The notes beneath the pieces were generated by a model that had not been told where the DNA came from, made no database searches, and worked only from the letters and a program-made list of their open reading frames with translations. A program made the position numbers and the translations under genes. DNA of 64,000 bases from Cordylochernes scorpioides (lineage: Eukaryota; Arthropoda; Arachnida; Pseudoscorpiones; Chernetidae): positions 117,411,072 to 117,475,071 of the forward strand of contig CP092863.1 in assembly GCA_030710605.1 (NCBI GenBank), given 5' to 3'. This document shows, one piece after another, positions 2,050-63,925 of the stretch (position 1 is its first letter; each line of letters opens with the position of its first letter).

Positions 2050-2129
2050 AGAGAGGGTAAGATGGTAGTGTTCACTACTGATGAGCCAGGCCATCCCAAT
2101 AGTTTTATCATTGCAGTAAAAACAGCTGT
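2050..2129. repeat. Fragment of foldback element (CTGATGAGCCAG family)
   Basis: The stretch carries CACTACTGATGAGCCAGGCC and then TTTATCATTGCAGTAA. These are the subterminal sequences of the foldback family seen at 7190, 8719, 9605 and 58160. It directly abuts the 92-bp array. Confidence 0.55.
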
Positions 2130-9885: not shown

Positions 9886-10125
9886 ATGCATCATATGCCT
9901 CTGTGTACTAGTGGATTTAGCCAGGACTTTCCACGCTAGACGTTTTACTGTCCGGCACTGGGGGATGAAAGAGAAATTCTCCGCCAGAGGATTGCTTATG
10001 ACAACAATTGGCCAAATGTTTTATTGGCAGAAGTAGTGAAAAGCAGAACCAATATATTGGCTTTTCATAAATTCTGGAGGACAGCACAGTCAAAAGGTGT
10101 AACACGAAGGAGCACCTATGTTCAC

Positions 10126-12330
10126 CATGTCACACAGAAGAAGTGACCACTACCATGGCACACAAAAGAAGTGACCACCATGGCACACAGAAGAAGTGAC
10201 CAGTACCATGGCACACATAAGAAGTGACCACTACCATGGCACACAGAAGAAGTGACCAGTACCATGGCACACATAAGAAGTGACCACTACCATGGCACAC
10301 AGAAGAAGTGACCACTACCATGGCACACAGAAGAAGTGACCACTACCATGGCACACAGAAGAAGTGACCACTACCATGGCACACAGAAGAAGTGACCACC
10401 ACCATGGCACACAGAAGAAGTGACCACTACCATGGCACACAGAAGAAGTGACCACCATGGCACACAAAAGAAGTGACCACCATGGCACACAGAAGAAGTG
10501 ACCACCACCATGGCACACAGAAGAAGTGACCACTACCATGGCACACAGAAGAAGTGACCACTACCATGGCACACAAAAGAAGTGACCACCATGGCACACA
10601 GAAGAAGTGACCACTACCATGGCACACAGAAGAAGTGACCACCACCATGGCACACAGAAGAAGTGACCACCACCATGGCACACAGAAGAAGTGACCACCA
10701 TGGCACACAAAAGAAGTGACCACCATGGCACACAGAAGAAGTGACCACCACCATGGCACACAGAAGAAGTGACCACTACCATGGCACACAGAAGAAGTGA
10801 CCACTACCATGGCACACAAAAGAAGTGACCACCATGGCACACAGAAGAAGTGACCACCATGGCACACAGAAGAAGTGACCAGTACCATGGCACACAAAAG
10901 AAGTGACCACCATGGCACACAGAAGAAGTGACCAGTACCATGGCACACATAAGAAGTGACCACTACCATGGCACACAGAAGAAGTGACCACTACCATGGC
11001 ACACAGAAGAAGTGACCACTACCATGGCACACAAAAGAAGTGACCACCATGGCACACAGAAGAAGTGACCAGTACCATGGCACACATAAGAAGTGACCAC
11101 TACCATGGCACACAGAAGAAGTGACCACTACCATGGCACACAGAAGAAGTGACCACTACCATGGCACACAAAAGAAGTGACCACCATGGCACACAGAAGA
11201 AGTGACCAGTACCATGGCACACATAAGAAGTGACCACTACCATGGCACACAGAAGAAGTGACCACCATGGCACACAGAAGAAGTGACCAGTACCATGGCA
11301 CACATAAGAAGTGACCACTACCATGGCACACAGAAGAAGTGACCAGTACCATGGCACACATAAGAAGTGACCACTACCATGGCACACAGAAGAAGTGACC
11401 ACTACCATGGCACACAGAAGAAGTGACCAGTACCATGGCACACAAAAGAAGTGACCACCATGGCACACAGAAGAAGTGACCACTACCATGGCACACAGAA
11501 GAAGTGACCACTACCATGGCACACAAAAGAAGTGACCACCATGGCACACAGAAGAAGTGACCACCATGGCACACAGAAGAAGTGACCAGTACCATGGCAC
11601 ACAAAAGAAGTGACCACCATGGCACACAGAAGAAGTGACCAGTACCATGGCACACATAAGAAGTGACCACTACCATGGCACACAGAAGAAGTGAATGGCA
11701 CACAGAAGAAGTGACCAGTACCATGGCACACAAAAGAAGTGACCACCATGGCACACAGAAGAAGTGACCAGTACCATGGCACACAGAAGAAGTGACCAGT
11801 ACCATGGCACACATAAGAAGTGACCACTACCATGGCACACAGAAGAAGTGACCACCATGGCACACAGAAGAAGTGACCAGTACCATGGCACACAAAAGAA
11901 GTGACCACCATGGCACACAGAAGAAGTGACCAGTACCATGGCACACATAAGAAGTGACCACTACCATGGCACACAGAAGAAGTGACCACCATGGCACACA
12001 GAAGAAGTGACCAGTACCATGGCACACAGAAGAAGTGACCACCATGGCACACAGAAGAAGTGACCAGTACCATGGCACACAGAAGAAGTGACCACCATGG
12101 CACACAGAAGAAGTGACCAGTACCATGGCACACAGAAGAAGTGACCACCATGGCACACAGAAGAAGTGACCAGTACCATGGCACACAGAAGAAGTAACCA
12201 CCACCATGGCACACAGAAGAAGTGACCACCATGGCACACAGAAGAAGTGACCACTACCATGGCACACAGAAGAAGTGACCACCATGGCACACAGAAGAAG
12301 TGACCACCATGGCACACAGAAGACCACCAC
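10126..12330. repeat. 25/28-bp minisatellite, about 80 units
   Basis: Units alternate between TGACCACCATGGCACACAGA + AGAAG (25 bp) and the same with CTA, AGT or CAC inserted before CCATGG (28 bp). Minor changes are CAAAAG or CATAAG for CAGAAG. A truncated unit lies at 11694. Both unit lengths equal one modulo three, so all minus-strand frames stay open and give 73-249-residue artefacts. The end near 12320 is abrupt. Confidence 0.97.
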
Positions 12331-13174: not shown

Positions 13175-16100
13175 TCACTTGGCCTTCTTCTGAGATATGG
13201 ACTTGTGGAAACCATAAAACGCCGTAGCAATATACTTATTCTGGGTCATATTGTCAATTATTGATGGAAGTGAAGCACAGAGTTGCCCAGTTTTGAGCAT
13301 AAGGGTTCTTCTTTCTTCTTTCAGAGCAGAGCAATCAAAAATATATTGAGTGATTTCATTTTTTAGTTTTGAATTACAGAAGGTACAAGTCGGGTCCTCA
13401 CCGCAGAGCATCTTGGTGTGGTTTTCTCTAAAAAAAACTTGAAAGTATTCTAACTTGTGCGAGTAGTCTTACAACCGGGAAAGGAAAATCCCCTAAAAGG
13501 TATCCCTCCGTCATGAAAGATATGTGAATGTCTTTGTAGTGAGAGTATAGCTTAGATTTATCCATTCTTGTAAGGTCGTTTTGTATAGATTGGTCTGCCG
13601 CTGTTTTTAAGAGCCCTGTAATCGCGCTCCTCAGCGTTTCAGGGTCATCACAGGAAACAAGTGCAGGGGATCCATTATTGTTAAGCAGATTGGTGAGCTT
13701 TTTAATGAAACCGATGGGTGTGCCCGAAGCATTAGACAGTTCCCGTGTTCTATTGAAACATACACGTGGCAATCTGTCACTGCTCATATTCAACACCCGC
13801 AGTCAATACTTCAGGGTTAATTTTAAGGCTGTTACACTCAATGAGATACGACCGGTTTCTAATCTGATTAGGTAACCTGGAGTGTATTTGGGCAGATTCA
13901 GGAACCTACGGATAAATATGTCTTGTATATTGTCCAGTAAGTCTTTATGCTCTGTTGCCCACAATGGAGCGGCATACATCAGGACAGCTCTCACTATTGT
14001 ATCAAAGAGTTTGATTGATAAATTTATTGACTTTGCTTTTGATTTTATTAATATTGGGTGTGTGGCGTTAATTGCTGTAAGTGCTTTTCCTTTAAAGTAA
14101 TTTGCCGGGTGAGTAGTTGTTATTGTTGGTGTCAGAGGGAATCCCAAGTATGTATATCTTGAAGTTATTGTTATGGGTTTATCATTCCAGAACCATCTAT
14201 CCTTATTTGAGGGTTTACCTTCATTACGGAACACCATAATCTTTGACTTGGACTCATTTAGTGTCATTAAGTTCTCATCGAGATATTCTTTCAGTATTTT
14301 GATCTTCTTTTGGAGGTTCATCCTGGACTCACCTATAATTGCTATGTCGTCGGCGTACAGCAATAAATGGATATCTCCAAATTCTGGCAAATTTACACTC
14401 GGCAGGTCTGAGTTATTATAAATTTCGATTAAGTCCGTGATAAATAATATAAATAGCAGTGGGGAAAGTGGTTCTCCCTGGAGGACTTCCGAGTTTATCT
14501 TAATACTTTCCGTAAATGATCCCTTCCATATGATAGCTATAGTTGCTTATTCGTAGTAACTTCTGATCGTACTTATGAATTGGTAACTTATGCCTAGGTT
14601 GTAAAGTTTTTTCCAAAGTATTGAGTGAGGTACAGTATCAAATGCCTTCCTTAGATCGACAAAAAAGACATATAGTTTTCCCCTCTTTTTTCTTAATGAT
14701 AGTTGGATTAAAGTAGTTAGTGTAAATATGTGGTCAATACATGATCTTCCTTTTCTAAATCCCGCTTGGTTTTCGGGTATAACTCTTCTTCCTTCGACCC
14801 ATTCCTCCAGTCGTGATCTTAGGATTGATGTGAAAAGCTTTGATACATTGCTAATCAGTGCAATACCTCGGTAGTTGGAGGGGCTGTTCTTATAACCATT
14901 TTTAAAGATTGGGTGTATAGTGGAATTAGTCCAAATTGCTGGGTATTTTCCAGTCGTCATAACACTATTGTAGAGTTGTTTCAACAGCAGTATGTACGAA
15001 TCAGGGAGTGTTTTAATACTTCATTGGGGATGCCATCGGGCCCGCATGCCTTGTTACTCCTCAAACCAGCTATCTCCTTGTATATGTCTGCATTGGTTAT
15101 CTCCGAGTCCAATATAGGATCGTTCTGAGAAATCACATTATGTAAATTACAAATTCTCAAATTTTTCTCTGTAGTCATTAGTTCGCGGTAAAAGTTCAGC
15201 CAGTCCTGTATAGATATTTCTCCTTGGATTATAGATGTGCTTTTGTAGAGCGCAATAGTTTTCCAGAAGGTCTTTGAGTCTTTAGCATTTCTGAGTTTTT
15301 CCTGTTTTTCATTATCAAAGCCTTTCCTTTTTAGATCCAATAAAACGAGATATTTCTTTCTGGAAGAAGCATAACATTCTCTGTCTTCCAATCTATTTGT
15401 TTTACGATATTTCTTCAGACTTTCTTTTGCCAGTTTTTTCATATCATAGCAGTCCTTATCGAACCACGGCTTAGATTTCATGGGGCCGCCCTTAATTGAG
15501 TAGGTTATTTTTGCAGATGACATTGCTTCCAAAATTCGCTGATTGAAAGTGTATACAAGGTCATCGGAGGCTGGTATGTTTTTTCCCGCAATTCTTCCAG
15601 TTTCATTTTAAACATTGCGAGTCCATCGGCTGACCATCTATATCTCGTAATATTATAATCTTCCCGTTTGGTTTTTTTCTCATTGAAGTTTTGGCCTTTT
15701 ATCGTTAAAACCAAAGGGTGGTGGTCAGAGTACAGTTGGTCATCGACTTTGAAGTCCAGTAAAATTTGTAGTGAACCCTGGGAGAGTATGCAATAGTCAA
15801 TAGTTGAATAGCCTCTTTCAGATATGTATGTAAAATCTCCATCTTTATCACCTCTAGATCTTCCATTAACTATTGTCAAAGAGTTATCTTCCAGGAAATC
15901 AAGAAGTTTATTAGACAGAGATGATATTATATGATCTTTGGCCCTTCTTTCCGATGTTAGAGGGAGCTGGAAATTAAGTGGATTGTGTAGTCCTCCCAAC
16001 TTCCCAGTTCTGATGTTTAAATCTCCAAGTAAAATAATTTCTTTTCCATCTGCTATTTGCTTTTGAATGTATGTAAACAGTTTATCTAAGTTATGCAGCT

Positions 16101-16396
16101 GTATTTGGTTTGGAGGAAGGTATACAAATATTAAACAGATAACATGTTGGGGGGCTCTTGTGTTTGTTGATAAGAAAATAGATAACCAAGTGCCATCCTT
16201 TTCAGAACTCTCTACTCTATATTTCCCGCCTTCCCTAAAACCGACAATTATACCCCCTGACCCTCTTCCCCTTCCAGATTCTTTGGTGGCAGGTAATTCG
16301 ATAATTTGATAATCTTTTAGTGTTATGTTAGTCCTAAAGAAATCAAATAAATTGTAGGGAAAAAAACGATGTTTTCTTGCATATTTTATGTTTCAT
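13175..16396 (-). pseudogene. LINE ORF2: AP endonuclease and reverse transcriptase, broken
   Basis: ORF2 of a non-LTR retrotransposon nicks target DNA and copies the element RNA. The likely start is ATG at 16396. A run of seven T (16366-16360 on this strand) shifts the frame at once. The endonuclease (about 16320-15650) shows ILLGDLNIRTG and YSDHHPL. The reverse transcriptase shows NYRGIALIS, FVDLRKAFDTVPH (about 14660), VLQGEPLSPLLF (about 14480) and the catalytic YADDIAI (about 14350). A C-terminal Cys-rich block (CTFCNSKLKNEITQYIFDC) is at about 13370. Lesions are frameshifts near 16360, 15520, 14983 and 13420-13470, TAA at 14547-14549, and TGA at 13803-13805 where related proteins usually have Trp. 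Confidence 0.9.
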
Positions 16397-18109: not shown

Positions 18110-18960
18110 CCTTTTTATAACAATCTACTAAACCTTTAAAAAAAACCTACCAACTTATCAAATCTTAAACCCTTACTAACTGACAAGATCTACTAACTTA
18201 AACCTTCCACCAATCTACCAAACCTTTTAAAAAACTGTACAAACTTAGCAAATCTTAATCCCTTACTAACTTACGAGATCTTAAGACTTCTAACAATCTA
18301 ACAAACCTTTTAAAAAACTGTACAAACTTAGCAAATCTTAATCCCTTACTAACTTACGAGATCTTAAGACTTCTAACAATCTACCAAACCTTTTAAAAAA
18401 CTGTACAAACTTAGCAAATCTTAATCCCTTACTAACTTACGAGATCTTAAGACTTCTAACAATCTACCAAACCTTTTAAAAACCCTACCAACTTTTCAAA
18501 TCTTAAACCCTTACTAACTTACCAGATCTTAAGACTTCTAACAATCTACCAAACCTTTTAAAAAACTGTACAAACTTAGCAAATCTTAATCCCTTACTAA
18601 CTTACGAGATCTTAAGACTTCTAACAATCTACCAAACCTTTTAAAAAACTGTACAAACTTAGCAAATCTTAATCCCTTACTAACTTACGAGATCTTAAGA
18701 CTTCTAACAATCTACCAAACCTTTTAAAAACCCTACCAACTTTTCAAATCTTAAACCCTTACTAACTTACCAGATCTTAAGACTTTTAACAATCTACCAA
18801 ACCTTTAAAAACCTACCAACTTATCAAATCTTAAAACTTTGATAACTTACAAGATCTTATGCCTTGCAACAACCTACCAAACCATTAAAAACCTACCAAC
18901 TTAGAAAATCTTAACCCTTATATACTAACTTACCAGATATTTAAAGACTTTTCTCTAATA
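18110..18960. repeat. 83-bp minisatellite, about 9-10 units
   Basis: The block ACCTTTTAAAAAACTGTACA recurs at 18222, 18305 and 18388, exactly 83 bp apart. Other unit landmarks are CTTACTAACTTACGAGATCT and TAAGACTTCTAACAATCTAC. Two units carry a variant block (AAAACCCTACCAACTTTTCA), about 250 bp apart, hinting at a three-unit higher-order repeat. The ends are diverged. Confidence 0.92.
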
Positions 18961-20215: not shown

Positions 20216-20805
20216 GTGGCCATCACCAGCCAATCTGGCAACTTTCAGCCACATTCTCACTGACAATTCGACCAATCTGGCAACTTTCAGCCACATTCTC
20301 ACTGACAATTCGACCAATCTGGCAACTTTTAGCTACATTCTCACTGACAATTCGACCAATCTGGCAACTTTCAGCCACATTCTCACTGATAATTCGACCA
20401 ATCTGGCAACTTTCAGCCACATTCTTACTGATAATTCGACCAATCTGGCAACTTTCAGCCACATTCTCACTGACAATTCGACCAATCTGGCAACTTTCAG
20501 CCACATTCTCACTGACAATTCGACCAATCTGGCAACTTTCAGCCACATTCTCACTGACAATTCGACTAATCTGGTAACTTTCAGCCACATTATCACTGAC
20601 AATTCGACCAATCCGGCAATTTCAACCACATTCTCACTGACAATTCGACCAATCTGGCAACTTTCAGCCACATTGTCACTGACAATTCGACCAATCTGGC
20701 AACTTTCAGCCACATTCTCACTGACAATTCGACCAATCTGGCAACTTTAAACCACATTCTCACTGACAATTCGACCAATCTGGCAACTTTCAGCTACATT
20801 CGACC
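20216..20805. repeat. 42-bp minisatellite, about 14 units
   Basis: Units consist of AATCTGGCAACTTTCAGCCA followed by CATTCTCACTGACAATTCGA and CC, 42 bp in all. One unit is shortened near 20620. Because 42 is divisible by three, several frames on both strands stay open, giving repetitive ORFs of 121-178 residues. These have no start context or domain and are artefacts. Confidence 0.96.
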
Positions 20806-24660: not shown

Positions 24661-25104
24661 GCGAACTACAAGTATTTTCTTTGTTAATTTTAAAATATAT
24701 AACAGGTTGTGTTCAAAACTGGTATTCAGGATAAAGTTGTAAGTAATGATATATCCAAGAAGCGCTGCTATATTGAGAGGAATAGAAGGTGGTTTGAACT
24801 GAATTACTGTTACCTATTTATATAATTTGAGGAGAATCCCTAATATTGAAACCCAAATGTCATCCCCCCAGGCGGAAGTGAGGGCAATGTCTCAGGGAGC
24901 GATGTCCTGGGGTCGGAGGGGTGTTGCTGTGCCCTCAATCCCCGGTAGGTCAAGGATTAGGGGGGAGGGGTTGAGGTCTTTCCTTCTTAACAGAAGTCTC
25001 CTGGAAATTTGATCATTTTCTGGCCAACACTTCGTCAGCCTTTGAGGAGAATCATCTATGTATAGTGTAGCGTATAGAAAGTTGGATATATATATATATA
25101 TATA
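24661..25104. other. Spacer, no gene seen
   Basis: It includes a purine-rich GC patch at 24860-24980 and a TA dinucleotide run at 25086-25105 directly before the MITE array. Confidence 0.4.
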
Positions 25105-25820
25105 TACACTCATGGACAAAACTTAAGGAAGTTGTACCTTTCAGCATGTATATCGGGATTGAGACAATAACTCTGAAAGATATTACAGTGACCTTTATTG
25201 AAGACACACGAGATAACCAATATACACTCATGGACAAAACTTAAGGAAGTTGTACCTTTCAGCGTGTATATCGGGATTGACACAATAACTCTGAAATATA
25301 TTACAGTGACCTTTATTGAAGACACACGAGATAACCAATATACACTCATGGACAAAACTTAAGGAAGTTGTACCTTTCAGCATGTATATCGGGATTGAGA
25401 CAATAACTCTGAAATATATTACAGTGACCTTTATTGAAGACACACGAGATAACCAATATACACTCATGGACAAAACTTAAGGAAGTTGTACCTTTCAGCA
25501 TGTATATCGGGATTGAGACAATAACTATGAAAGATATTACAGTGACCTTTATTTAAGACACACGAGATAACCAATATACATTCATGGACAAAACTTAAGG
25601 AAGTTGTACCTTTCAGCATGTATATCGGGATTCAGACAATAACTCTGAAATATATTACAGTGACCTTTATTGTAGACACGAGATAACCAAGTATATATAC
25701 ACTCATGGACAAAACTTGACGAAGTTGTACTTTATGGCATGTATATCAGGATTCAGAAAACTCTGAAAGATATTACAGTGACCGTTATTGAAGACACAAG
25801 AGATAACCAATATCCACTCA
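25105..25820 (+). repeat. Tc1-like MITE array 1, six units of about 118 bp
   Basis: Each unit starts with the terminal repeat TACACTCATGGACAAAACTT and runs through TGTACCTTTCAGCATGTATA, TTACAGTGACCTTTATTGAA and CACACGAGATAACCAATA, where the next terminal repeat begins. Starts are at 25105, 25222, 25340, 25458, 25576 and about 25697. No right arm is present; the array breaks off at 25820. Confidence 0.93.
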
Positions 25821-27118: not shown

Positions 27119-28029
27119 TACACCCATGGAGACAAAACTTAAGGAAGTTGTACCTTTTAGCATGTATATCGGGATTATAACTCTGAAATATATTACAGTG
27201 ACCTAATTGAAGACATACGAGATAACCAATATACACTCATGGACAAAACTTAAGGAAGTTGTACCTTTTAGCATGTATATCTGGGTTGAGACAATAACTC
27301 TGAAAGATATTACAGTGACCTTTATTGAAGACATACGAGATAACCAATATACACTCATGGACAAAACTTAAGGAAGTTGTACCTTTTAGCATGTATATCG
27401 GGATTGAGACAATAACTCTGAAAGATATTACAGTGACCTTTATTGAAGACACACGAGATAACCAATATACACTCATGGACAAAACTTAAGGAAGTTGTAC
27501 CTTTCAGCATGTATATCAGGATTCAGACAATAACCCTGAAATATATTACAGTGACCTTTATTGAAGACATACGAGATAACCAATATACACTCATGGACAA
27601 AACTTAAGGAAGTTGTACCTTTCAGCATGTATATCAGGATTGAGACAATAACCCTGAAATATATTACAGTGACCTTTATTGAAGACACACGAGATAACCA
27701 ATATGCACTCATGGACAAAACTTAAGGAAGTTGTACCTTTTAGCATGTATATCGGGATTCAAGCAATAACTCTGAAAGATATTACAGTGACCTTTATTGA
27801 AGACACACGAGATAACCAATATGCACTCATGGACAAAACTTAAGGAAGTTGTACCTTTTAGCATGTATATCGGGATTCAAGCAATAACTATGAAAGATAT
27901 TACAGTGACCTTTATTGAAGACACACGAGATAACCAAGTGTGAACAGCCTCTGTCTCCAAAAAAAAAAAAAAAAATAGACGACCGTCGAAATCAAAGAAT
28001 TTCCACTTAAGTTTTGTCCATGAATGTAT
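27119..28029 (+). repeat. Tc1-like MITE array 2, seven units plus right arm
   Basis: The first unit starts TACACCCATGGAGACAAAAC; later units follow at about 118 bp. The last unit keeps the right arm: GTGTGAACAGCCTCTGTCTC, an A-run, ATAGACGACCGTCGAAATCA, then inverted terminal repeat TAAGTTTTGTCCATGAATGT. It shows that the arrays are internal expansions of one MITE. Confidence 0.93.
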
Positions 28030-30459: not shown

Positions 30460-30895
30460 CACATATTATAATGTCCAGAAATGGCCGCAGCCTTGCAGTA
30501 AATTGACATGGACCCAGAGCAGCAGCTTTATACACTTAAGATAGAGGACATTGCTATGATAGATATGTATGGAGACATCTGAGACTCTTCATTGGACACG
30601 ACAACAACAACAACACAGTATACAAACCCAAGATAGAGAACATTGCTGTGATAGAGATGTACGGAGACATCTGAGGCTCTTCATTGGACACGACAACAAC
30701 AATACAGTATACACACCCAAGATAGAGAACATTGCTGTGATAGAGATGTACGGAGACATCTGAGACTCTTCATTGGATACAACAACAACAACAACAATAC
30801 AGTATACACATCCAAGATAGAGAACATTGCTGTGATAGAGATACATGGAGACACCTGAGGCTCTTCATTGGACACAACAACAACAGAGATAAGAG
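30460..30895 (+). repeat. 92-bp family, about 3.6 units with unique left flank
   Basis: The left flank ACATGGACCCAGAGCAGCAG leads into CACTTAAGATAGAGGACATT. Units then follow with CATTGGACACGACAACAACA junctions. The same left flank occurs at 32392 and 58826. This suggests a defined element whose interior is the minisatellite. Confidence 0.9.
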
Positions 30896-31543: not shown

Positions 31544-31735
31544 AACAACTTTATTAAGACCACCTGTCTTATACAGATTCACCACAGGAAGTAGCATAGA
31601 TAGAACTCATATACTCCAGACAGCACAGAACCCAACAACAGCCTCCAGGGTCTTATACAGATTCACCACAGGAAGGAAGCATAGATGGAGCTCCTATACT
31701 CCAGACAGCACAGAACCCAACAACAGCCTCCAGGT
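31544..31735 (-). mobile_element. Retroposon 3' tail with stem-loop, partly duplicated
   Basis: The stem TAAGAC/GTCTTA is at 31555-31571. Beyond it, ATACAGATTCACCACAGGAA and GCATAGATAGAACTCATATA are repeated about 85 bp later (31636-31735). The body is shared with 48735-48800, which gives a clear family. Confidence 0.8.
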
Positions 31736-35425: not shown

Positions 35426-35883
35426 TACACTCATGGACAAAACTTAAGGAAATGGAAAGTCTTTGATATCACCCCAGTCGTCTGTTATATTGAAGGAGAC
35501 AGAGGCTGTTCACGCTTGGTTATCTCGTGTGTCTTTAATAAAGGTCACTGTAATATCTTTCAGAGTTATAATCCCGATATACGAGGTGTGTTCAAAAAGT
35601 ACATGCTAAAAAGTACAACTTCCTTAAGTTTTGTCCATGAGTGTATATTGGTTATCTCGTGTGTCTTTAATAAAGGTCACTGTAATATCTTTCAGAGTTA
35701 TAATCCCGATATACGAGGTGTGTTCAAAAAGTACATGCTAAAAAGTACAACTTCCTTAAGTTTTGTCCATGAGTGTATATTGGTTATCTCGTATGTCTTC
35801 AATAAAGGTCACTGTAATATCTTTCTGAGTTATTGTCTCAATCCCGATATACATGGTAAAAGTACAAATTGTCCATGAGTGTA
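35426..35883 (-). repeat. Tc1-like MITE array, three units, with an 18-bp insert in two
   Basis: Inverted orientation. Two units of about 132 bp carry CGAGGTGTGTTCAAAAAG flanked by TA (35582-35599 and 35714-35731). The third lacks it. Outer ends are TACACTCATGGACAAAACTT and GTCCATGAGTGTA. Confidence 0.88.
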
Positions 35884-43195: not shown

Positions 43196-43238
43196 AAAAA
43201 GAAAAAAAAAATGGCAAGGTCATCAGCTATATACAATA

Positions 43239-43786
43239 TACACTCATGGACAAAACTTAAGGAAGTTGTACCTTTTACCATGTATATCGGGATTATAACT
43301 CTGAAAGATATTACAGTGACCTTTATTGAAGACATACGAGATAACCAATATACACTCATGGACAAAACTTAAGGAAGTTGTACCTTTTACCATGTATATC
43401 GGGATTATAACTCTGAAAGATATTAGAGTGACCTTTATTGAAGACATACGAGATAACCAATATACACTCATGGACAAAACTTAAGGAAGTTGTACCTTTT
43501 GCCATGTATATCGGGATTATAACTCTGAAAGATATTACAGTGACCTTTATTGAAGACATACGAGATAACCAATATACACTCATGGACAAAACTTAAGGAA
43601 GTTGTACCTTTTACCATGTATATCGGGATTATAACTCTGAAAGATATTACAGTGACCTTTATTGAAGACATACGAGATAACCGAGTGTAAACAGCCTCTG
43701 TCTCCTTCAGAAAAAAAAAAAACAAAAAAAAAAACAGACCACTGCCGACAGCAAAGACTTTCCACTTCCATTTTGTCCATGAGTGT
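43239..43786 (+). repeat. Tc1-like MITE array 3, four units of 112 bp plus right arm
   Basis: Starts are at 43239, 43351, 43463 and 43575. Units are 112 bp because GAGACA is absent after CGGGATT. The right arm (AGTGTAAACAGCCTCTGTCT, A-run, terminal repeat) closes it at 43786. Confidence 0.93.
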
Positions 43787-44059: not shown

Positions 44060-44515
44060 TACACTCATGGACAAAACTTCAGGAAATTTCATATTTTGAT
44101 GTCGCCGATCGTCTATTATTATTTTTTTTTTTTTTTGAAGGAGACCGAAGCAATTTTTATATACCTAAATGTTTGAACATTAGCTATATACACTCTCATT
44201 AACAAAAACTTGAGGAAGTGGAAAGTATTTGATAGCGCGGGTCGTCTATTATTTTTTTTCAAGGAGGCCGAGGCTGTTCACACTTGGTTATCTCGTGTAT
44301 CTTCAATAAAGGCCACTGTAATATCTTTCAGAGTTATTGTCTGAATCCCGATATGCATGCTGAAAGATACAACTTCCTTAAGTTTGTCCATGAGTGTTTA
44401 TTGGTTATCTCGTGTGTCTTCAATAAAGGTCACTGTAATATCTTTCAGAGTTATTGTCTCAATCCCGATATACATGCTGAATGGTACAACTTCCTTTGGT
44501 CCATGAGTATATTGT
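44060..44515 (-). repeat. Tc1-like MITE fragments and short array
   Basis: A truncated short arm (44060-44160, TACACTCATGGACAAAACTT and T-run) is followed by a second element at 44189-44515 with two long-arm units and GTCCATGAGTGTTTATTGG between them. Confidence 0.82.
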
Positions 44516-46147: not shown

Positions 46148-46570
46148 GTGGTTTCTTTATAGGTTTGTTGGTGGTGGACGAGTGGCCGTCGATTTCCGAA
46201 CAGCTACGATCCGGGATCGAATCCTGCAATGGACATTTTTTTTTAAATTAGATTTTCTCCAATGGTACCCTCGATTCTTAAAAAGTCCAACCCTACCAGT
46301 GAATTCAAGTAACCAAAAGGGTTTCTGATATACTTGTAAGAGTAAAAGACAAACTACGCTTTCTACACGTATCCGGCCTAACCTGCCTCTTCCCTGACGG
46401 TGATCCTGTCCTTAGCCTCTCCACCCTGGTCATAGTGGTTTTATATATTCCGCTTTATGCGGCCATTGGGGCTCAAAAATCATTTATTTTGGTTAGCAGC
46501 CCCGTAAATGAAGATATTTTCTCTTTCTACACTTGTAAACATGTAGCACACTTACAGTAAAGGTGTTGAC
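46148..46570 (+). mobile_element. tRNA-derived SINE, split by a 154-bp insertion
   Basis: The head GTTGGTGGTGGACGAGTGGC and B-box-like GGGATCGAATCC lie at 46165-46230. The body breaks at 46368 and resumes at 46533 (TTGTAAACATGTAGCACACT). Confidence 0.82.
46369..46522. mobile_element. 154-bp insertion with 10-bp target duplication
   Basis: CTTTCTACAC occurs on both sides (46359-46368 and 46523-46532). The insert, starting GTATCCGGCCTAACCTGCCT, is GC-richer and contains ATTCCGCTTTATGCGG, a small hairpin. I do not recognise its family. Confidence 0.7.
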
Positions 46571-46781
46571 TTTGCTTTGAATTTTTAATGAAACTGATTC
46601 CAAAAATTATACTTAATCAAACAAAATTTATTGATATACAAGAGAAAGAGAACAATAAAAATAAAAGGAAAACTAATATTAAACAAAGGAACTTTTTTCT
46701 GTTTCGGTTAGCGCCTATTAACCTGTGAGCTTACACACACTCTGTGATAACAATTAATTAATATATATATACAACAAAAGG

Positions 46782-46842
46782 CAGTCGCTAACTATTACCC
46801 AGCATGATTATCATGGCCTGTACGACGTGTACTAGGGGGATA
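46782..46842 (+). mobile_element. SINE 3' end fragment
   Basis: GCAGTCGCTAACTATTACCC then GCATGATTATCATGGCCTGT and ACTAGGGGGATAA. Confidence 0.7.
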
Positions 46843-47365
46843 ATATATAAATAAAGGTTCCTTTATCGACTTGTAACACTAGCGGATAAAAATATGTTTA
46901 CATTAAAGACAATCTATTGAGTAGATGCATAATTTTATTGACGCAATTTCCCAAAAGAAAACATCTTAAAATGGTTATTTTTCTGGATCATATTAATCAT
47001 CAACTTCAATTACTGTTTCCAAGATTTTTGAGACGATGGAAAATGGTTGAATGTTTCACATTGAAGTTTTCGGCCAACATTCTCCTTACTAAGCTATCGT
47101 TCTCTTCCATAACTGGCTATAAGTGGCTGCTGTTGGTCGAACATTTCCTTCATATCAACGAGGTTTGTATCGCTAAACTTCATAAAGCCATCTTTCAACT
47201 CAGCTCTTTCTGATTGTTCTTTCGCTAAAAAGGTTTGTGTTTAGATTGCGAAATACCTGTGCTATATTCCAGGCTTTCTCAAAACTGTAAAGCATCATTT
47301 TGGTACGCATTTTTCATTATCTGAAAGTAAATATTTAAATTTTCATTTAAAAAAAAGGGCCCAGT
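46843..47365. other. Unrecognised DNA
   Basis: The frame 46917-47213 (98 codons) has no recognisable motif. Confidence 0.35.
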
Positions 47366-47367
47366 TC

Positions 47368-48515
47368 ATGGTCCCTGCGATACTATATGGGCGGTACAAC
47401 TACTACAATAGGAAGGATACAGAGAAGATTAGCATGGTCCCTGCGATACTATATGGGCGGTACAACTACTACAATAGGAAGGATACAGAGAAGATTAGCA
47501 TGGTCCCTGTGATACCATTTCGGCGGGACAACTACTACAATAGGAAGGATACAGAGAAGATTAGCATGGTCCCTGTGATACCATTTCGGCGGTACAACTA
47601 CTACAATAGGAAGTATACAGAGAAGATTAGCATGGTCCCTGTGATACCATTTCGGCGGGACAACTACTACAATAGGAAGAATACAGAGAAGATTAGCATG
47701 GTCCCTGTGATACCATTTCGGCGGGACAACTACTACAATAGGAAGTATACAGAGAAGATTAGCATGGTCCCTGTGATACCATTTCGGCGGTACAACTACT
47801 ACAATAGGAAGAATACAGAGAAGATTAGCATGGTCCCTGTGATACCATTTCGGCGGGACAACTACTACAATTGGAAGGATACAGAGAAGATTAGCATGGT
47901 CCCTGTGATACCATTTCGGCGGTACAACTACTACAATAGGAAGAATACAGAGAAGATTAGCATGGTCCCTGTGATACCAGTTCGGCGGTACAACTACTAC
48001 AATAGGAAGGATACAGAGAAGATTAGCAATGCTCCATGTGATACCAGTTCGGCGGTACAACTACCACAATAGGAAGGATACAGAGAAGATTAGCAATGCT
48101 CCATGTGATACCAGTTCGGCCGTACAACTACCACAATAGGAAGGATACAGAGAAGATTAGCAATGCTCCATGTGATACCAGTTCGGCGGTACAACTACTA
48201 CAATAGGAAGGATACAGAGAAGATTAGCAATGCTCCATGTGATACCAGTTCGGCGGTACAACTACTACAATAGGAAGGATACAGAGAAGATTAGCAATGC
48301 TACATGTGATACCAGTTCGGCGGTACAACTACTACAATAGGAAGGATACAGAGAAGATTAGCAATGCTACATGTGATACCAGTTCGGCGGTACAACTACT
48401 ACAATAGGAAGGATACAGAGAAGATTAGCATGGCCCCTGTGATACCAGTTCGGTGGTACAATTACTACAATAGGAAGGATACAGAGAAGATTAGCAATGC
48501 TCCATGTGATACCAG
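47368..48515 (+). repeat. 66/67-bp tandem array derived from U6 snRNA, about 17 units
   Basis: Each unit corresponds to roughly nucleotides 1-65 of U6 spliceosomal RNA. GATACAGAGAAGATTAGCAT matches the U6 ACAGAGA box and AGC triad, and in the unit at 48412-48439 the match runs 28 bases through GGCCCCTG. Before it, TTCGGCGGTACA and CTACTACAATAGGAA align with U6 TTCGGCAGCACA and TATACTAAAATTGGAA. Units are 66 bp to about 47960 and 67 bp after, where CATGGTCCC becomes CAATGCTCC. A 234-residue open frame across the 66-bp part is a by-product of a length divisible by three. No U6 3' half or promoter is present, so it is not a working U6 gene. Confidence 0.9.
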
Positions 48516-48830
48516 AGAAGGCCAACATGGCCCACACACAGGCCGTGAATGGCCGAGCAGAGAAAGCGGAGGAGGCAATAACCCCAGCAGCCTGCCGTGT
48601 CAGCAGTCCCATTAAGTCCGCGCCACGAAACAATGCCAGCGCGTGACGTCCTGATTTACATCGCTCAACTTTCTTCCCTCAGGAGAAGCAATCACAGACA
48701 ATTTGTACCATTCCGTGTGGATCTATCTGACTACAGCCGTTGCTATAGGAGCTCCATCTATGCTTCATTTCTGTGATGAATCTGTATAAGACCGGTGGTC
48801 TTAATAAAGCCGTTGATACTCTCTCTCCGT
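48516..48830 (+). mobile_element. Retroposon 3' body and stem-loop tail joined to the U6 array
   Basis: The body includes CTATAGGAGCTCCATCTATG, shared with 31560-31735. The stem TAAGAC (48787-48792) pairs with GTCTTA (48798-48803), followed by ATAAAGCCGTTGATACTCTC. It has the same sense as the U6 units. The whole 47368-48830 therefore reads as U6-derived head plus LINE or SINE tail. Confidence 0.8.
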
Positions 48831-49239
48831 GTTGTCCCATGCTACAAGAATATCCATCTTTTATTGAAAACAAACACATCTCAGAATAATGATATCTTGG
48901 CGAAATATTCAGTTACGCAATATTGCATATCAAGGGAGGCAAAGTTGGACTGTGATGTGGTTCCCCCTGGATAGCCAATCAAAGACAGCAGCTCTTTTTA
49001 CCCATCATGGAGACTTATGGATTTTCAGGCTTAAAACTGGCCATACAAGACTGCTCATCTTTCAGGATGGTATCAAGACCACAATGCACCATCTAGAGGA
49101 CCAAATAGGCCTCACTAGACCACCTTTTGGAATGTATGGGGGCCTCAAGTTAGGCGACCTTTATTCCATACCTACCAAGATTGTGAATTTTATCAATGAA
49201 TTAAGTCTCTCCATTATCTTATATATCTTATATAATAAA
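48831..49239 (+). other. Possible 3' body of a family-2 retroposon
   Basis: The frame 48889-49242 is open for 117 codons (WFPLDSQSKTAALFTHHGDL) and stops just where the family-2 tail begins. That position suggests the end of a retroposon ORF or a chance frame; no domain can be named. Confidence 0.3.
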
Positions 49240-49372
49240 TAATCTGGATCTCTAATGTTTTCATGCGTTGAATAATGTAAATATCTTATGTAAATAAACT
49301 TTTCTCCTTGTTTGGCGCAAGTATCCCTTGCGGGATATAGCGCTTTGGAAATAAAATAATTGGAATTGGAAT
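49240..49372 (+). mobile_element. Retroposon 3' tail, family 2, copy 2
   Basis: AATCTGGATCTCTAATGTTT to AAATAAAATAATTGGAATTG; the second copy of 22536-22665. Confidence 0.78.
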
Positions 49373-49995
49373 GGGATAATGATTTTAAAATATTGCATAT
49401 CATTAGCTTACTAGTTTTCTACTAAGCTAGAACCAGAGATTCTTGACGAAATAGATCCTACAAGGGGAACTTAAAGAGAAACAAAATCTGACATAACTTT
49501 GGGGTAACTAATTGTGGCGGTAACAGAATTTATATCACAGACAATACACATTTATACTGTAAAACGACGTTTGACAATTTTTACCGCAAATGTTTCTTTT
49601 GAACGAAAAATCGTAATTTATTTTAAGAAGAAATAACGACTATTTTTATCCTTAGGGATGAAATATGAAAGGATGAATTGTGAAGAGTAATGATGAAGGG
49701 AAAAATAAAACCGCTAAAATACGGTCGTATATAGGGCCATTTCTACAGTTTTACACATTTCTAAGCATTTTCTTTCTACAACCCATCTAGAAGATGGTCG
49801 ACTTCCTTTAAAGTCAAGCCACTATAGACAGATAACAATAGACCAAATAATAAAAATAATTAATTGTTAAAGATTCTTAGTATAATTTCAAAACCATATT
49901 AGCATTAAAAGTAATTAGCTTTAAAATAATAGCATTGCTTATCACTGATACTATTGCTGTTATTCCTACATATACTCTACATTTCTGTGTGCTTA
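49373..49995. other. AT-rich spacer
   Basis: No gene or repeat was recognised. Confidence 0.4.
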
Positions 49996-56240: not shown

Positions 56241-56399
56241 AACATGTAGGAGTAACAGTAATAGTAACAGTATCTTTTTATAAACGTTTATTGTTCTTTT
56301 GACGTTTAAGCGACCCCACTTTCACCCTTAAAAAAATGTAGAAAGCTTATTAGTGAAGTATTGTCTTTTGTTTCGATCTTATTCTCTCTCCAGTACATA

Positions 56400-57286
56400 T
56401 ACACTCGTGTACAACACTTAAGGAAGTTGTACCTTTTACCATGTATATCGGGATTATAACTCTGAAATATATTACAATGACCTTTAATGAAGACACACGA
56501 GATAACCAATATACACTCATGGACAAAACTTGAGGAAGTTATACCTTTTACCATGTATATCGGGATTGAGACAATAACTCTGAAATATATTACAATGACC
56601 TTTAATGAAGACACACGAGATAACCAATATACACTCATGGACAAAACTTGAGGAAGTTATACCTTTTACCATGTATATCGGGATTGAGACAATAACTCTG
56701 AAATATATTACAATGACCTTTAATGAAGACACACGAGATAACCAATATACACTCATGGACAAAACTTGAGGAAGTTATACCTTTTACCATGTATATCGGG
56801 ATTGAGACAATAACTCTGAAATATATTACAATGACCTTTAATGAAGACACACGAGATAACCAATATACACTCATGGACAAAACTTAAGGAAGTTATACCT
56901 TTTAGCATGTTTATCGGGAATGAGACAATAACTCTGAAAGATATTACAGTGACCTTTATTGAAGACATACGAGATAACCAATATACACTCATGGACAAAA
57001 CTTAAGGAAGTTGTACCTTTTACCATGTATATCGGGATTCAGACAATAACTCTGAAAGATAGTACAGTGACCTTTATTGAAGATACACGAGATAACCAAT
57101 ATACACTCATGGGCAAAACTTAAGGAAGTTGTACCTTTTACCATGTATATCGGGTTTCAAACAATAACTATGAAAGATATTACAGTGACTTTATTGAAGA
57201 CACACGAGATAACCAAATGTGAAAAACCTCTGTCTCATAAAAAAAAAAAAAAAACAGACGACCAGCGACATTTGTTCATGAGTGTA
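56400..57286 (+). repeat. Tc1-like MITE array 4, seven units plus right arm
   Basis: Starts are at about 56400, 56512, 56630, 56748, 56866, 56984 and 57101. Three units (56512, 56630, 56748) share the variants CTTGAGGAAGTTATACCTTT and ACAATGACCTTTAATGAAGA. The right arm is shortened (CAGCGACATTTGTTCATGAG). Confidence 0.93.
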
Positions 57287-58862: not shown

Positions 58863-61143
58863 CAGTGGACCCTCGGTTTGCGAGCATAATCCGTTCCAGA
58901 GCCATGCTCGTACTCCTAAACGCTCGTAGTGCGAAACTAATTTCTTATTTTTAATAATTGAAACTCGGGCAATTCTTCCATGAATTTTAGTTTAATTAGA
59001 GTCGGTAAACACTTCGTGATAAGTATAAGAGAAGCTTGTACTCCATTCAATATTTGAAATCATAGCTATCATATTTTTAATGAAAGATTCGAAAGAAAAA
59101 TTTTACACGTGATAGTTACTGAATTTCAAACCTAGTGATAAGTAAATAAAAAGATAATGCATAAATAAATGTATAAAAAAAGATAAAATAAACAAAAATA
59201 AAAGATAATGTTGGGATGGCTGATGCAATTGCGTTAAAAAACCACTATTGCTGTTCACCAGACAACCCCTTAAAATCATATGCATGGACGATGTGAGGCC
59301 ACAATTTTGTCCAAGCAGAAACGAGAGTTCTCTGGGAGACTCCATTCCATGCTTTATCAATGATCTTAAGGCAGTGGACAATGTTGAAATGATTCTGCCA
59401 AAACTCTCGGAGAGTAAGGTTTGTTTCTTCCGTTAATTCGAAGCATCTCTGAAAAAGTTCTTTGATATATATTTTCTTAAAGTTGGAAATGACCTGCTGA
59501 TCCATAGGCTGCAGTAGTGGGGTGGTGTTAGGAGGGAGGAACCTGACCTCAATAAACTTGAATTCATCCAGTAAGTGATCCTTAAGGCTTGGTGGATGAG
59601 CAGGAGCATTGTCCATAACCAGCAACGCTCTGAGTGGCAGTTTTTTTTCCGAAAGGTATTTCTTCACTGCAGGACCGAATGCTTCGTTCATCCACTCAAC
59701 AAACAACAAACGAGTGACCCAAGCCTTAGTATTCGACTTCCACAAAACGTTCAATTGGCTCTTTTGCACTTTGTGTTTCTTGAAAGCCCGTGGATTCTCA
59801 GAATGATACACGAGCAGTGGCTTTACTTTCAAATCTCCACTTGCATTAGCACACAGCAAGAGGGTGAGACGGTCTTTCATGGGCTTGTGACCGGGCATTG
59901 TATTCGCTTCGGCTGTAATGTAGGTTCTCTTCGGCATCTTTTTCCAAAAAAGTCCTGTTTCATCACAGTTAAAAACTCGCTGTGGGAGGTAACACTCGGT
60001 AACAACGAGCTTCTCGAACTCGGCAGTGATTGTCTCAGCTGCTTTAGCATCCGAACTTGCACCCTCTCCATGCCTCGTGACACTATGGATGCCACTTCTC
60101 TTAAAGTTTTCGAACCACCCCTTGCTGGCTTTGAAGTCTGCATGTACTTCGTTCTCTATTGATGTACATGGTATTTTACTCCCGAGTTCGGCGTACAAGG
60201 CCTTTGCCTTTTCACATATTAAATTCTGGGTTATGGTATCACCTGCTAATTGCTTCTCGTTTATCCATACAAGAATCAATTTTTCAACCTCTTCTAGAAG
60301 ACGTGGACGCTGTTTTGATAGTCTTGTGACTCCTTTTGCTGCATCTAACTCCCTTAATTCCTTTTTCTTCTTCAATATTGTGCAAATCGTTGATGTCGAC
60401 TTCTTATAAAATCTCGCTATTTCTGTCATCCGCATGCCACGTTCGTGCTTTTCAATCATTTCCCTCTTTGCCTCCATTGTGATAATATCCTTCTTCTTAC
60501 CCAATTCTCTTTCAACATATTTCTTCACGGGGCCCATTTTGCAGTGGTTATAGGATTTTTATAGCAAGAGAGGTAGAAATTGTCACCAATTTTTGAAAAT
60601 ACATATATAATCTAAAAAATAAATAAGAAATTTAAAAAAGCTATTCCTTTATCATTGAGAGATAATTTTATCGTTGAATTAAAATTAGTCAAAATGATAT
60701 ACAGAGTATTTTAAGATTAAAGAAAACGTTTTAACTTTAATAGCAACTTTTTAAATTTTAATAGCAACTTCTTAAATTTTAATAACACCTTCGAGCCTTT
60801 GTTTACAAATGGAAAAAGTTATCTTAAAAATTAAAAAAGTTTTCTTTAATTTTAAAATACTATATACATGTATATATATATATATGTCGATTTGAATATA
60901 TTCATTATAGTATGTATTAAATATATATACTGTACTTATATTATAATGATTAATAACAATCCATATATAAAATAATATTTAATATAAAAATATGCCCTCA
61001 TCCCGCCGCTAAAGGTGGAAATGGAGAAGAGGGGCAACCATCACGAGTTGCTCGTAATGCGAAATTTCACTCGTAATCCGAGGCAAAATTTTTCAAAAAA
61101 TTGTGCTCGTACTCCAAGGTGCTCGTAAACCGAGGGTCCACTG
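58863..61143 (-). mobile_element. Tigger element (2,281 bp), TA target duplication
   Basis: Terminal inverted repeats are CAGTGGACCCTCGGTTTGCG and the inverse GTAAACCGAGGGTCCACTG, flanked by TA at 58861-58862 and 61144-61145. Subterminal GCTCGTACTCC motifs recur at both ends. It carries one transposase on the minus strand. Confidence 0.95.
59245..60537 (-). CDS. Tigger/pogo transposase, uninterrupted
   Basis: This 430-residue protein would bind the element ends and cut and join DNA in the nucleus. Residues about 15-60 form the psq-type helix-turn-helix (MTEIARFYKKSTSTICTIL). Residues 75-150 are the CENP-B-type DNA-binding domain, closing with KGWFENFKRSGI. The DDE domain has Asp192 (FNCDETGLFW), Asp309 (LLVMDNAPAHP) and Asp346 (TTPLLQPMDQQV), with 36 residues between the last two. 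It ends HAYDFKGLSGEQQ, shorter than many Tigger proteins, so the C-terminal tail may be trimmed. The start ATG lies just inside the right end. No stop or frameshift is present, so a recent or selected copy is possible. Confidence 0.93.
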   Translation of the reverse strand: MGPVKKYVERELGKKKDIITMEAKREMIEKHERGMRMTEIARFYKKSTSTICTILKKKKELRELDAAKGVTRLSKQRPRLLEEVEKLILVWINEKQLAGDTITQNLICEKAKALYAELGSKIPCTSIENEVHADFKASKGWFENFKRSGIHSVTRHGEGASSDAKAAETITAEFEKLVVTECYLPQRVFNCDETGLFWKKMPKRTYITAEANTMPGHKPMKDRLTLLLCANASGDLKVKPLLVYHSENPRAFKKHKVQKSQLNVLWKSNTKAWVTRLLFVEWMNEAFGPAVKKYLSEKKLPLRALLVMDNAPAHPPSLKDHLLDEFKFIEVRFLPPNTTPLLQPMDQQVISNFKKIYIKELFQRCFELTEETNLTLREFWQNHFNIVHCLKIIDKAWNGVSQRTLVSAWTKLWPHIVHAYDFKGLSGEQQ

Positions 61144-62040
61144 TAGTTGAAATTGCTGCGATAGAGATGTATGGAGACATCTGAGGCTCTTCATTGGACA
61201 CAACAACAACAACAATACAGTATACACACCCAAGATAGTGGACATTTCTGTGATAGAGATGTATGGAGACATCTGAGGCTCTTCATTGGACACAACAACA
61301 ACAACAATACAGTATACACACCCAAGATAGTGGACATTTCTGTGATAGAGATGTATGGAGACATCTGAGGCTCTACATTGGACACGACAACAACAACAAT
61401 ACAGTATACACACCCAAGATAGTGGACATTTCTGTGATAGAGATGAATGGAGACATCTGAGGCTCTACATTGGACACGACAACAACAACAATACAGTATA
61501 CACACCCAAGATAGAGAACATTTCTGTGATAGAGATGTATGGAGACATCTGAGGCTCTACATTGGACACGACAACAACAACAATACAGTATACACACCCA
61601 AGATAGTGGACATTTCTGTAATAGAGATGTATGGAGACATCTGAGGCTCTTCATTGGACACAACAACAACAACAATACAGTATACACACCCAAGATAGTG
61701 GACATTTCTGTGATAGAGATGTATGGAGACATCTGAGGCTCTACATTGGACACGACAACAACAACAATACAGTATACACACCCAAGATAGTGGACATTTC
61801 TGTGATAGAGATGTATGGAGACATCTGAGGCTCTACATTGGACACGACAACAACAACAATACAGTATACACACCCAAGATAGAGAACATTTCTGTGATAG
61901 AGATGTATGGAGACATCTGAGGCTCGACATTGGACACGACAACAACAACAATACAGTATACACACCCAAGATAGTGGACATTTCTGTAATAGAGATGTAT
62001 GGAGACATCTGAGGCTCTACATTGGACACGACAACAACAA

Positions 62041-62424: not shown

Positions 62425-62746
62425 TACACTCATGGATAAACTTAAGGAAGTTGAAACTCTTTGATGTCGCCGGTCTGTTTTTTTTTTTTTTTTTTTAAGG
62501 AGACAGAGGCTGTTCACACTTGGTTATCTGGTGTGTCTTCAATAAAGGTCACTGTAATAATTTCAGAGTCATTGTCTCAATCCCGATATACATGCTGAAA
62601 GGTACAACTTCCTTAAGTTTTGTCCATGAGTGTATATTGGTTATCTCGTGTGTCTTCAATAAAGATCACTGTAATAACTTTCAGAGTTATAATCCCGATA
62701 TACAAGGTAAAAAATACAACTTCCTTAAGTTTTGTCCATGAGTATA
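62425..62746 (-). repeat. Tc1-like MITE, two long-arm units
   Basis: TACACTCATGGATAAACTTA, T-run near 62478, then two long arms separated by GTCCATGAGTGTATATTGGT. It ends GTCCATGAGTATA. Confidence 0.87.
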
Positions 62747-63586: not shown

Positions 63587-63925
63587 AATGTGTCCAATGA
63601 AGAGCCTCAGATAACTCCGTACATCTCTATCACAGAAATGTTCTCTATCTTGGGTGTGTATACTGTATTGTTGTTGTTGTCGTGTCCAATGAAGAGCCTC
63701 AGATGTCTCCATGCATCTCTATCACAGCAATGTCCTATATCTTGGGTGTATATACTGTATTGTTGTTGTTGTTGTGTCCAAAGAAGAGCCTCAGATGTCT
63801 CCGTACATCTCTATCACAGAAATGTTCTCTATCTTGGGTGTGTATACTGTATTGTTGTTGTTGTCGTGTCCAATGAAGAGCCTCAGATATCTCCATACAT
63901 CTCTATCACAGCAATGTTCATTAAG
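63587..63925 (-). repeat. 92-bp family, about 3.7 units
   Basis: GTGTCCAATGAAGAGCCTCA and ATGTTCTCTATCTTGGGTGT recur at 92 bp. The array ends inside a unit at 63920. Confidence 0.93.

Follow-up and report, generated by a model that had tools for sequence, protein, structure and literature searches.

A dispersed U6 snRNA-derived tandem repeat family in Cordylochernes scorpioides, with a truncated member as the starting locus

INTRODUCTION

LINE-mobilized U6 retropseudogenes of mammals carry target-site duplications, show template switching, and include 3′-truncated copies, as described in the accessible part of PMC4476161, the text of which does not contain the words "tandem," "concatemer," or "dimer." For satellite DNAs, the accessible part of a 2025 review (PMC12692304) gives transposons, rRNA-gene spacers, microsatellites, and minisatellites as sources, and the word "snRNA" is absent from that text, section 4.1 included. 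Here we describe a tandem family in Cordylochernes scorpioides that touches both systems. Like mammalian U6 retropseudogenes, it comprises dispersed U6 copies with a true 5′ end and target-site duplications, but it is a derived lineage in which many copies carry an internal 66-nucleotide repeat. Like satellites from transposons or rRNA-gene spacers (5S rDNA-derived ones, for example), so far as the accessible part of the review describes them, it leads from a sequence of known origin through tandem repetition to many short arrays, but its source is U6 snRNA.

Tandem snRNA gene clusters likewise hold snRNA sequence head to tail, but the clusters repeat whole genes with their promoters, whereas the 66-bp unit holds U6 nucleotides 1 to 67 only. 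SINEU families are snRNA-derived nonautonomous retroposons that are headed by U1 or U2 and carry a tail of other sequence; the elements that were read here differ in being U6 from end to end. We claim no SINE label for them because U6 promoters are external. The initial annotation of the locus knew of no described U6 minisatellite, and we likewise found no U6-derived tandem family in the literature searched, the coverage of which excludes most subscription papers; the accessible parts of PMC4935994 and PMC5575873 held nothing to the point. U6 retropseudogenes and repeat-derived satellites are each known, and their combination is without report in the literature searched.

RESULTS

A U6-derived array in the window

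The window is the whole 64,000-nucleotide stretch that was analyzed (GenBank assembly GCA_030710605.1, contig CP092863.1, forward-strand positions 117,411,072 to 117,475,071). The initial annotation, made from the letters alone, had proposed an array of about 17 units of 66 to 67 bp aligning with U6 nucleotides 1 to 65, and Tandem Repeats Finder, Rfam, and alignment to the genome's own U6 all agree with that proposal. The array and its surroundings are as follows.

47367 to 48515, plus strand: array of 17 units (66 or 67 bp) in head-to-tail order, each matching about U6 nucleotides 1 to 65 (Tandem Repeats Finder, Rfam, alignment)
47376 to 47507, plus strand: units 1 and 2, head CTGCGATACTATATGGGCGG, CTGCG of U6 nucleotides 61 to 67 kept
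47508 to 47969, plus strand: units 3 to 9, 66 bp, head TGTGATACCATTTCGG
47970 to 48515, plus strand: units 10 to 17 and the broken next unit, 66 or 67 bp, head TGTGATACCAGTTCGG (the family consensus)
46630 to 47366, no strand: 5′ flank, 92% over 730 bp in common with locus L062, no U6 5′ end
48513 to 48745, no strand: 3′ flank, 99% identity with L062 along 233 bp, U6 3′ domain absent
48744 to 48813, no strand: copy of another dispersed repeat family (tandem elsewhere), absent from L062

Tandem Repeats Finder returned a period of 66 with 17.3 copies and 96% matches at 47367 to 48514. When positions 46500 to 49500 were scanned with the Rfam U6 model (RF00026), 15 plus-strand matches were obtained within 47380 to 48503 (E values of 2.6e-11 to 1.6e-5), all 15 beginning at model position 1; 13 ended at model positions 58 to 65, and the other two were stretched to position 105 by way of the next unit. 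A scan of the 64-kb window gave U6 as the sole family listed, and seven U6 matches reached the gathering score. The array thus satisfies the U6 covariance model, although without a true match to its 3′ portion. In alignments to the genome's own U6, each of the 17 units had 49 to 55 identities in 66 to 67 columns, and the local score was 48, compared to a maximum of 16.5 among 106 control pieces from the same window. The 28-base perfect match pointed out by the annotation lies in unit 16 (48372), where 26 mismatch-free bases fall inside the unit and the following TG completes the run. We conclude that chance similarity to U6 is ruled out by the control pieces and the Rfam E values.

Within the array, ATGGCCCC was replaced by AATGCTCC in five of the eight units 10 to 17 and by AATGCTAC in two, and units 1 and 2 probably carry the older form of the junction. 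The window copy lacks both ends of U6: no U6 5′ end was found at the array border, and the best tail score was 6, compared to a control maximum of 11. It therefore differs from a full-length U6 gene, which has a 3′ stem-loop and a T-run terminator. Neither a TATA element about 24 bases upstream nor a PSE was visible by eye in the 5′ flank, the array was not among the places listed by genome-wide promoter pattern searches, and no target-site duplication was present at this copy. For the window copy, then, the annotation was right about the missing 3′ stem-loop. RNA polymerase III is stopped by TTTT, and it would not be stopped in the array because TTTT is absent from both the 66-bp unit and the window array.

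The species' own U6 and the array junction

To define the species' own U6, the best 30 U6 matches of the genome were fetched, and TATATA was judged by eye. Copies with TATATA 24 bases before the start were found on C20 near 27.70 Mb, at C3:93.94 Mb, and at C6:10.21 Mb, and these TATA-bearing copies read GTACTCG or GTACACG, then CTTGTTCGGCGGTACATATACTAAAATTGGAACG. They carry TTCGGCGGTAC, and for that reason TTCGGCGGTAC, which the annotation had offered as an example of drift in the 5′ stem-loop, is the normal U6 of this species.

The array unit differs from U6 at the head and in the body. U6 starts with GTACACGCTTG-TTCGG, whereas the array unit reads CCCCTG-TGATACCAG-TTCGG across the head junction; besides TGATACCAG, the heads TGATACCAT and CGATACTAT occur in the window. 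We define bodies with ACTACTACAATAGGAAGG as array type and bodies with ATATACTAAAATTGGAACG, the sequence of U6 itself, as U6 type. The junction of the array unit is CCCCTGTGATACCAGTTCGG, and TGTGATACCAG was the junction recognized most often in 29 of 30 locus files; in the window, the one exception, CCAT prevails. We conclude that the 66-bp fusion spread by copying.

Other junctions were CTGCGATAC, in window units 1 and 2 and in L058, and TGATACTTG, in L116. Compared by sequence, the junctions suggest that U6 nucleotides 1 to 67 (ending in CCCCTGCG) became joined to the head of a second U6, of which a few bases were lost, and we infer that CG changed to TG and TTG to CAG afterwards. Body and junction types also occur crossed, with a U6 body and a CAG junction in L121, an array body and a TTG junction in L116, and array bodies with a CAG junction, and L001 is a mosaic of U6-type (U) and array-type (a) bodies in the order U U a a a U U. 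The crossed types indicate that recombination or template switching also takes part.

A genome-wide family

The genome comprises 2.62 Gb in 24 contigs. Among the matches listed for a dimer query, for which 40 of 785 candidates were scored, there were at least 35 array loci on at least 16 of the 24 contigs. Pattern searches that allowed up to three mismatches, and for which each reversed-pattern control gave 0, located the unit junction at 18,341 places, the U6 5′ end with an array-type body at 346, a U6-type body with the array junction at 412, a U6-type body with the U6 tail at 1417, and the U6 5′ end with a U6-type body at 1185; these counts are not locus numbers because one array may give several matches. 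By the same kind of search, again with 0 for the reversed control, an array-type body ran into the U6 3′ tail at 441 places. The unit consensus was identical in nearly every locus, such that the family, like a minisatellite or satellite, has one consensus in tandem at many loci. The annotation was correct on U6 origin, unit length, and copy number, and an isolated minisatellite would be too limited a view. We conclude that the window array belongs to a dispersed U6-derived family and is truncated, with both of its U6 ends gone.

Anatomy of complete elements

A complete element opens with the U6 5′ end, passes through k units of 66 bp, closes with the U6 3′ domain, and has unique sequence on either side; where borders were read, the last unit continued into the U6 3′ domain. 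Those read had k = 0 (L115, L118, and L119), k = 4 (L116, L117, and L121), or k = 5 (L120). The 3′ end was unreadable at 6 of 35 loci; at 21 of the 29 readable array loci a U6 tail scored above all 2913 controls, barely so in two (L091, C3:2.25; score 12 versus a control maximum of 11), and at the other eight, the window included, it was absent. The missing 3′ domain reported by the annotation is therefore true of the window copy and of seven other readable loci but not of most of the family members read. A U6 head scored at least 9 at 14 of the 23 loci with a readable 5′ end, three of them at 9 to 10, where 99.5% of controls scored 8 or less and the control maximum was 10; the remaining nine loci, again including the window, had no such head. 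True U6 ends, as expected of a LINE-mobilized retropseudogene, are thus found in the family and not in the window copy.

Among the matches listed, 17 head-tail pairs were recognized by eye, and 13 were spaced by exactly 23 + 66k (seven with k = 0, three with k = 4, and one each with k = 5, 10, and 15); the other four missed a whole k by 1 to 8 bp, and the largest of them had k near 77. Examples with k = 0, 4, and 5 were fetched and read, and far pairs were assumed to bound one array. Array-type U6 without repeats accounted for 7 of the 17 pairs and was also found in L115.

End repeats

Direct repeats at element ends were scored, and mismatched pairs of loci served as the controls. The run with strict anchors was relied on, as a run with looser anchors, which gave a Mann-Whitney P of 0.04, misplaced several 5′ ends. 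End repeats scoring at least 20 occurred at 6 of 17 loci and in 7 of 272 mismatched pairs (Fisher P = 2e-5; P = 0.005, 7e-4, and 8e-5 at thresholds of 16, 18, and 22, respectively). Short complete elements scored at least 18 in five of six cases and at least 20 in four of six, and the best of 30 mismatched pairs scored 16. By two thresholds (20, or 18 for short elements), 11 of 23 elements had direct repeats of 11 to 19 bp (10 of 23 at a threshold of 20), one of the 11 being L118, whose repeat overlaps the U6 5′ end, and 12 of 23, L117 among the short ones, had no clear end repeat. L115 (k = 0) and L120 (k = 5), both with array-type bodies, had perfect end repeats, that of L115 being 13 bp. 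Array-free U6 copies of the same genome scored at least 20 in 5 of 14 cases, compared to 0 of 182 controls, in the looser-anchor run. Repeats of 11 to 19 bp at true U6 ends are the trace left by LINE-type retroposition (accessible part of PMC4476161), and the family bears target-site duplications in part.

The window also contains broken LINE-type open reading frames with reverse transcriptase (PF00078) and endonuclease (PF14529) domains on the minus strand at 13803 to 16392, and nothing ties them to the U6 elements.

Length and age of arrays

Unit number differed between duplicated loci. L062 (C1:117.505 Mb), which lies 46 kb from the window locus and is its duplicate, has 11 units versus 17 in the window, and the duplicates L046 and L047 have 11 and 9 units. 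A four-unit higher-order repeat was seen by eye in L033. Mean differences between units were 0.7 to 8.8% within loci and 5.5% between loci. The arrays may have been inserted ready-made, or they may have entered with one or a few repeat units and grown later.

The relative ages of arrays and U6 ends were compared in two sets. In 15 loci chosen by array similarity, a choice that may bias the result, 21 of 383 non-CpG tail sites had diverged versus a unit mean of 2.0% (paired test, P = 0.004; 14 loci, L001 omitted), which favors invasion of old pseudogenes by arrays. In 36 places where body and tail were matched with one mismatch, a small set of young copies only, there were 8 tail mismatches on 13 sites and 19 body mismatches on 43 (P = 0.49), with 9 more at CpG, and the like rates favor insertion in one piece. 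A younger age for the arrays than for the U6 ends is made less likely by this less selected set and is retained as evidence for invasion.

Promoter searches and conservation of the catalytic motifs

Genome-wide searches for TATATA before U6 heads found no promoter-bearing source. TATATA preceded array-type heads three times, compared to a hand estimate of two to three from base composition, and preceded U6-type heads at 23 places (one double-counted), several of which were the known copies on C20, C3, and C6. One candidate source, at C3:89213199, has TATATA 24 bases before an array-type-tailed element, but this TATATA lies inside a CT microsatellite.

The annotation had stressed that the ACAGAGA box and AGC triad are kept, and relative to U6 they are. 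As a sign of special conservation the claim failed, as unit positions 40 to 59, which hold both motifs, varied by 2.2% versus 1.6 to 2.1% elsewhere in a set of 630 units (without L001 and three files that overlap or duplicate others). The figure counts all the more against conservation because this core had served to find the units, a choice that favors conservation at these positions. No selection on the two motifs was seen.

Neighboring repeats and genes

Other repeats are abundant in the window. A second dispersed tandem family with a unit of about 92 bp occurs in both orientations at 2125 to 5032, 30538 to 30885, 61144 to 62040, and 63590 to 63919, and pieces of it flank L052, L058, and L059. 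A third, with units of 112 to 132 bp (mostly 118), lies at 25102 to 25820, 27131 to 27937, 35516 to 35833, 43234 to 43682, 44284 to 44496, 56397 to 57216, and 62520 to 62743, and single copies or pieces flank L001, L035, L045, L050, and L052. Three more minisatellites, at 10124 to 12323, 18118 to 18920, and 20230 to 20801, have units of about 28, 83, and 42 bp, respectively. A repeat related to an 85-bp unit beginning TCTTATACAGATTC is present at 31566 to 31734, at 48744 to 48813, and at C18:8.092 to 8.096 Mb; the copy beside the U6 array has about 100 genome matches and a 133-bp-spaced array on C18, and the U6 array at C8:60.80 Mb directly adjoins another related copy. A 437-amino-acid open reading frame at 59245 to 60558 on the minus strand has DDE_1, Tc5-type HTH, and CENP-B_N domains and is a pogo/Tigger-like transposase. 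Elsewhere, L042 (C1:112.12 Mb), an array whose U6 3′ domain is missing, adjoins an exon-like stretch resembling a ULK/ATG1-like kinase by eye, and L033 (C2:192.82 Mb) lies within an inverted repeat (flanks 82% over 67 bp).

DISCUSSION

We consider it probable that the family is a LINE-mobilized U6 retropseudogene lineage, founded by a fusion of U6 nucleotides 1 to 67 to U6, whose arrays change length as DNA. First, template jumping of reverse transcriptase or tandem duplication would have joined U6 nucleotides 1 to 67 to a second U6 that lost a few head bases, giving a U6 with an internal 66-nucleotide repeat. Next, RNAs of the lineage, with or without repeats, would have been inserted by LINE-type target-primed reverse transcription at hundreds of sites, leaving true U6 ends between short direct repeats, a step that is supported, though short of proof. 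Finally, unit number changes in place, as seen at the two duplicated loci. The window copy has lost both U6 ends. In favor of this reading are the U6 ends and end repeats of complete elements, the similar repeats at array-free U6 copies, the one prevailing junction, the array-type copies without repeats, and the like tail and body rates at the one-mismatch places. Against it stand the elements with no clear end repeat, the more diverged tails of the array-selected loci, the crossed body and junction types, the TATATA searches, which found no promoter-bearing source, and the eight array loci that lack a U6 tail.

Less probably, the lineage might be a still-active retroelement made of U6 only, in which an RNA of repeated U6 5′ domains from a source near true U6 goes back into the genome as arrays that are already complete. 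The splicing RNA would then be a polymeric, SINE-like parasite gaining fresh U6 by template switching. Such an element would leave copies with five unit bodies equal to U6, as in L121, and copies with perfect repeats, as in L115 and L120.

A different history, less likely but a serious alternative, is invasion at the DNA level, in which a satellite derived from U6 recombines into existing U6 retropseudogenes, either in the form of circular DNA or through gene conversion between loci. The U6 ends and the direct repeats would then be those of the host pseudogene, and the array would be a later arrival. Consistent with invasion, tails were more diverged than units in the array-selected loci, the unit consensus is nearly universal, the body-plus-tail places offer many potential hosts, and in L033, L042, L050, L052, L057, L059, and L092 the first unit is U6 type and is followed by array type, with L001 as a mosaic. 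Moreover, euchromatic satellites of Drosophila enter arrays of another satellite, according to the accessible part of PMC7919458. Nonetheless, tail and body were similar in age at the less selected places, the young elements L115, with no unit, and L120, with five, which have perfect end repeats and array-type bodies, would require conversion soon after insertion, and the pure U6-type array L121 would require an invader equal to U6.

Independent local expansion of each U6 pseudogene, without spread of the 66-bp form, is very unlikely, although U6 does become tandem by other routes. Tandems of full-length U6 were read at L123, with a period of 107 bp, and at L011, with a period of 120 bp and T-run spacers; periods of 112, 113, 115 to 123, and 191 are known from coordinates only, and the several periods indicate that U6 copies turn tandem in more than one way. 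In L117, moreover, each of the five units carries a GGCACC that is private to this locus. Against independent expansion, the breakpoint and derived junction are shared genome-wide and dominate nearly all locus files, and the 75-bp array of L122, in which CCTGTGATAC is followed by a fuller U6 head, looks like a relative of the 66-bp form rather than a separate case. We note that L011/L017 (C1:170.086 Mb), L123 (C15:21.04 Mb), and L013 (C5:34.80 Mb) comprise tandem full-length U6 copies, three with T-run spacers or 107-bp spacing, and one U6 beside an inverted U6 piece.

That the array is the inner part of a larger transposon is more improbable still. The many other dispersed tandem families of the window and the inverted repeat around L033 could be read in its favor, but an all-against-all flank comparison of 25 locus files found scattered repeats at varying distances, no common border sequence, and no carrier transposon next to the arrays, and the borders are U6 ends at most readable loci. 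Least probable of all is a working RNA whose repeats are kept for the function of the U6 catalytic strand, as ACAGAGA and AGC equal U6 in the unit consensus but vary as much as the rest of the unit, and no promoter was seen. Nothing tested favors a role for array transcripts, given motifs without excess conservation and no visible promoter, and the window array is most likely neutral or selfish DNA rather than a working splicing RNA.

The series from U6 retropseudogene through a single array-type copy between direct repeats to an array of tens of units presents a housekeeping RNA as the founder of a minisatellite family. The derived junction and the two body types are markers that make retroposition versus DNA-level invasion testable within one genome and its relatives. 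In such genomes, U6-based searches, primers, and small-RNA normalization meet thousands of U6-like cores.
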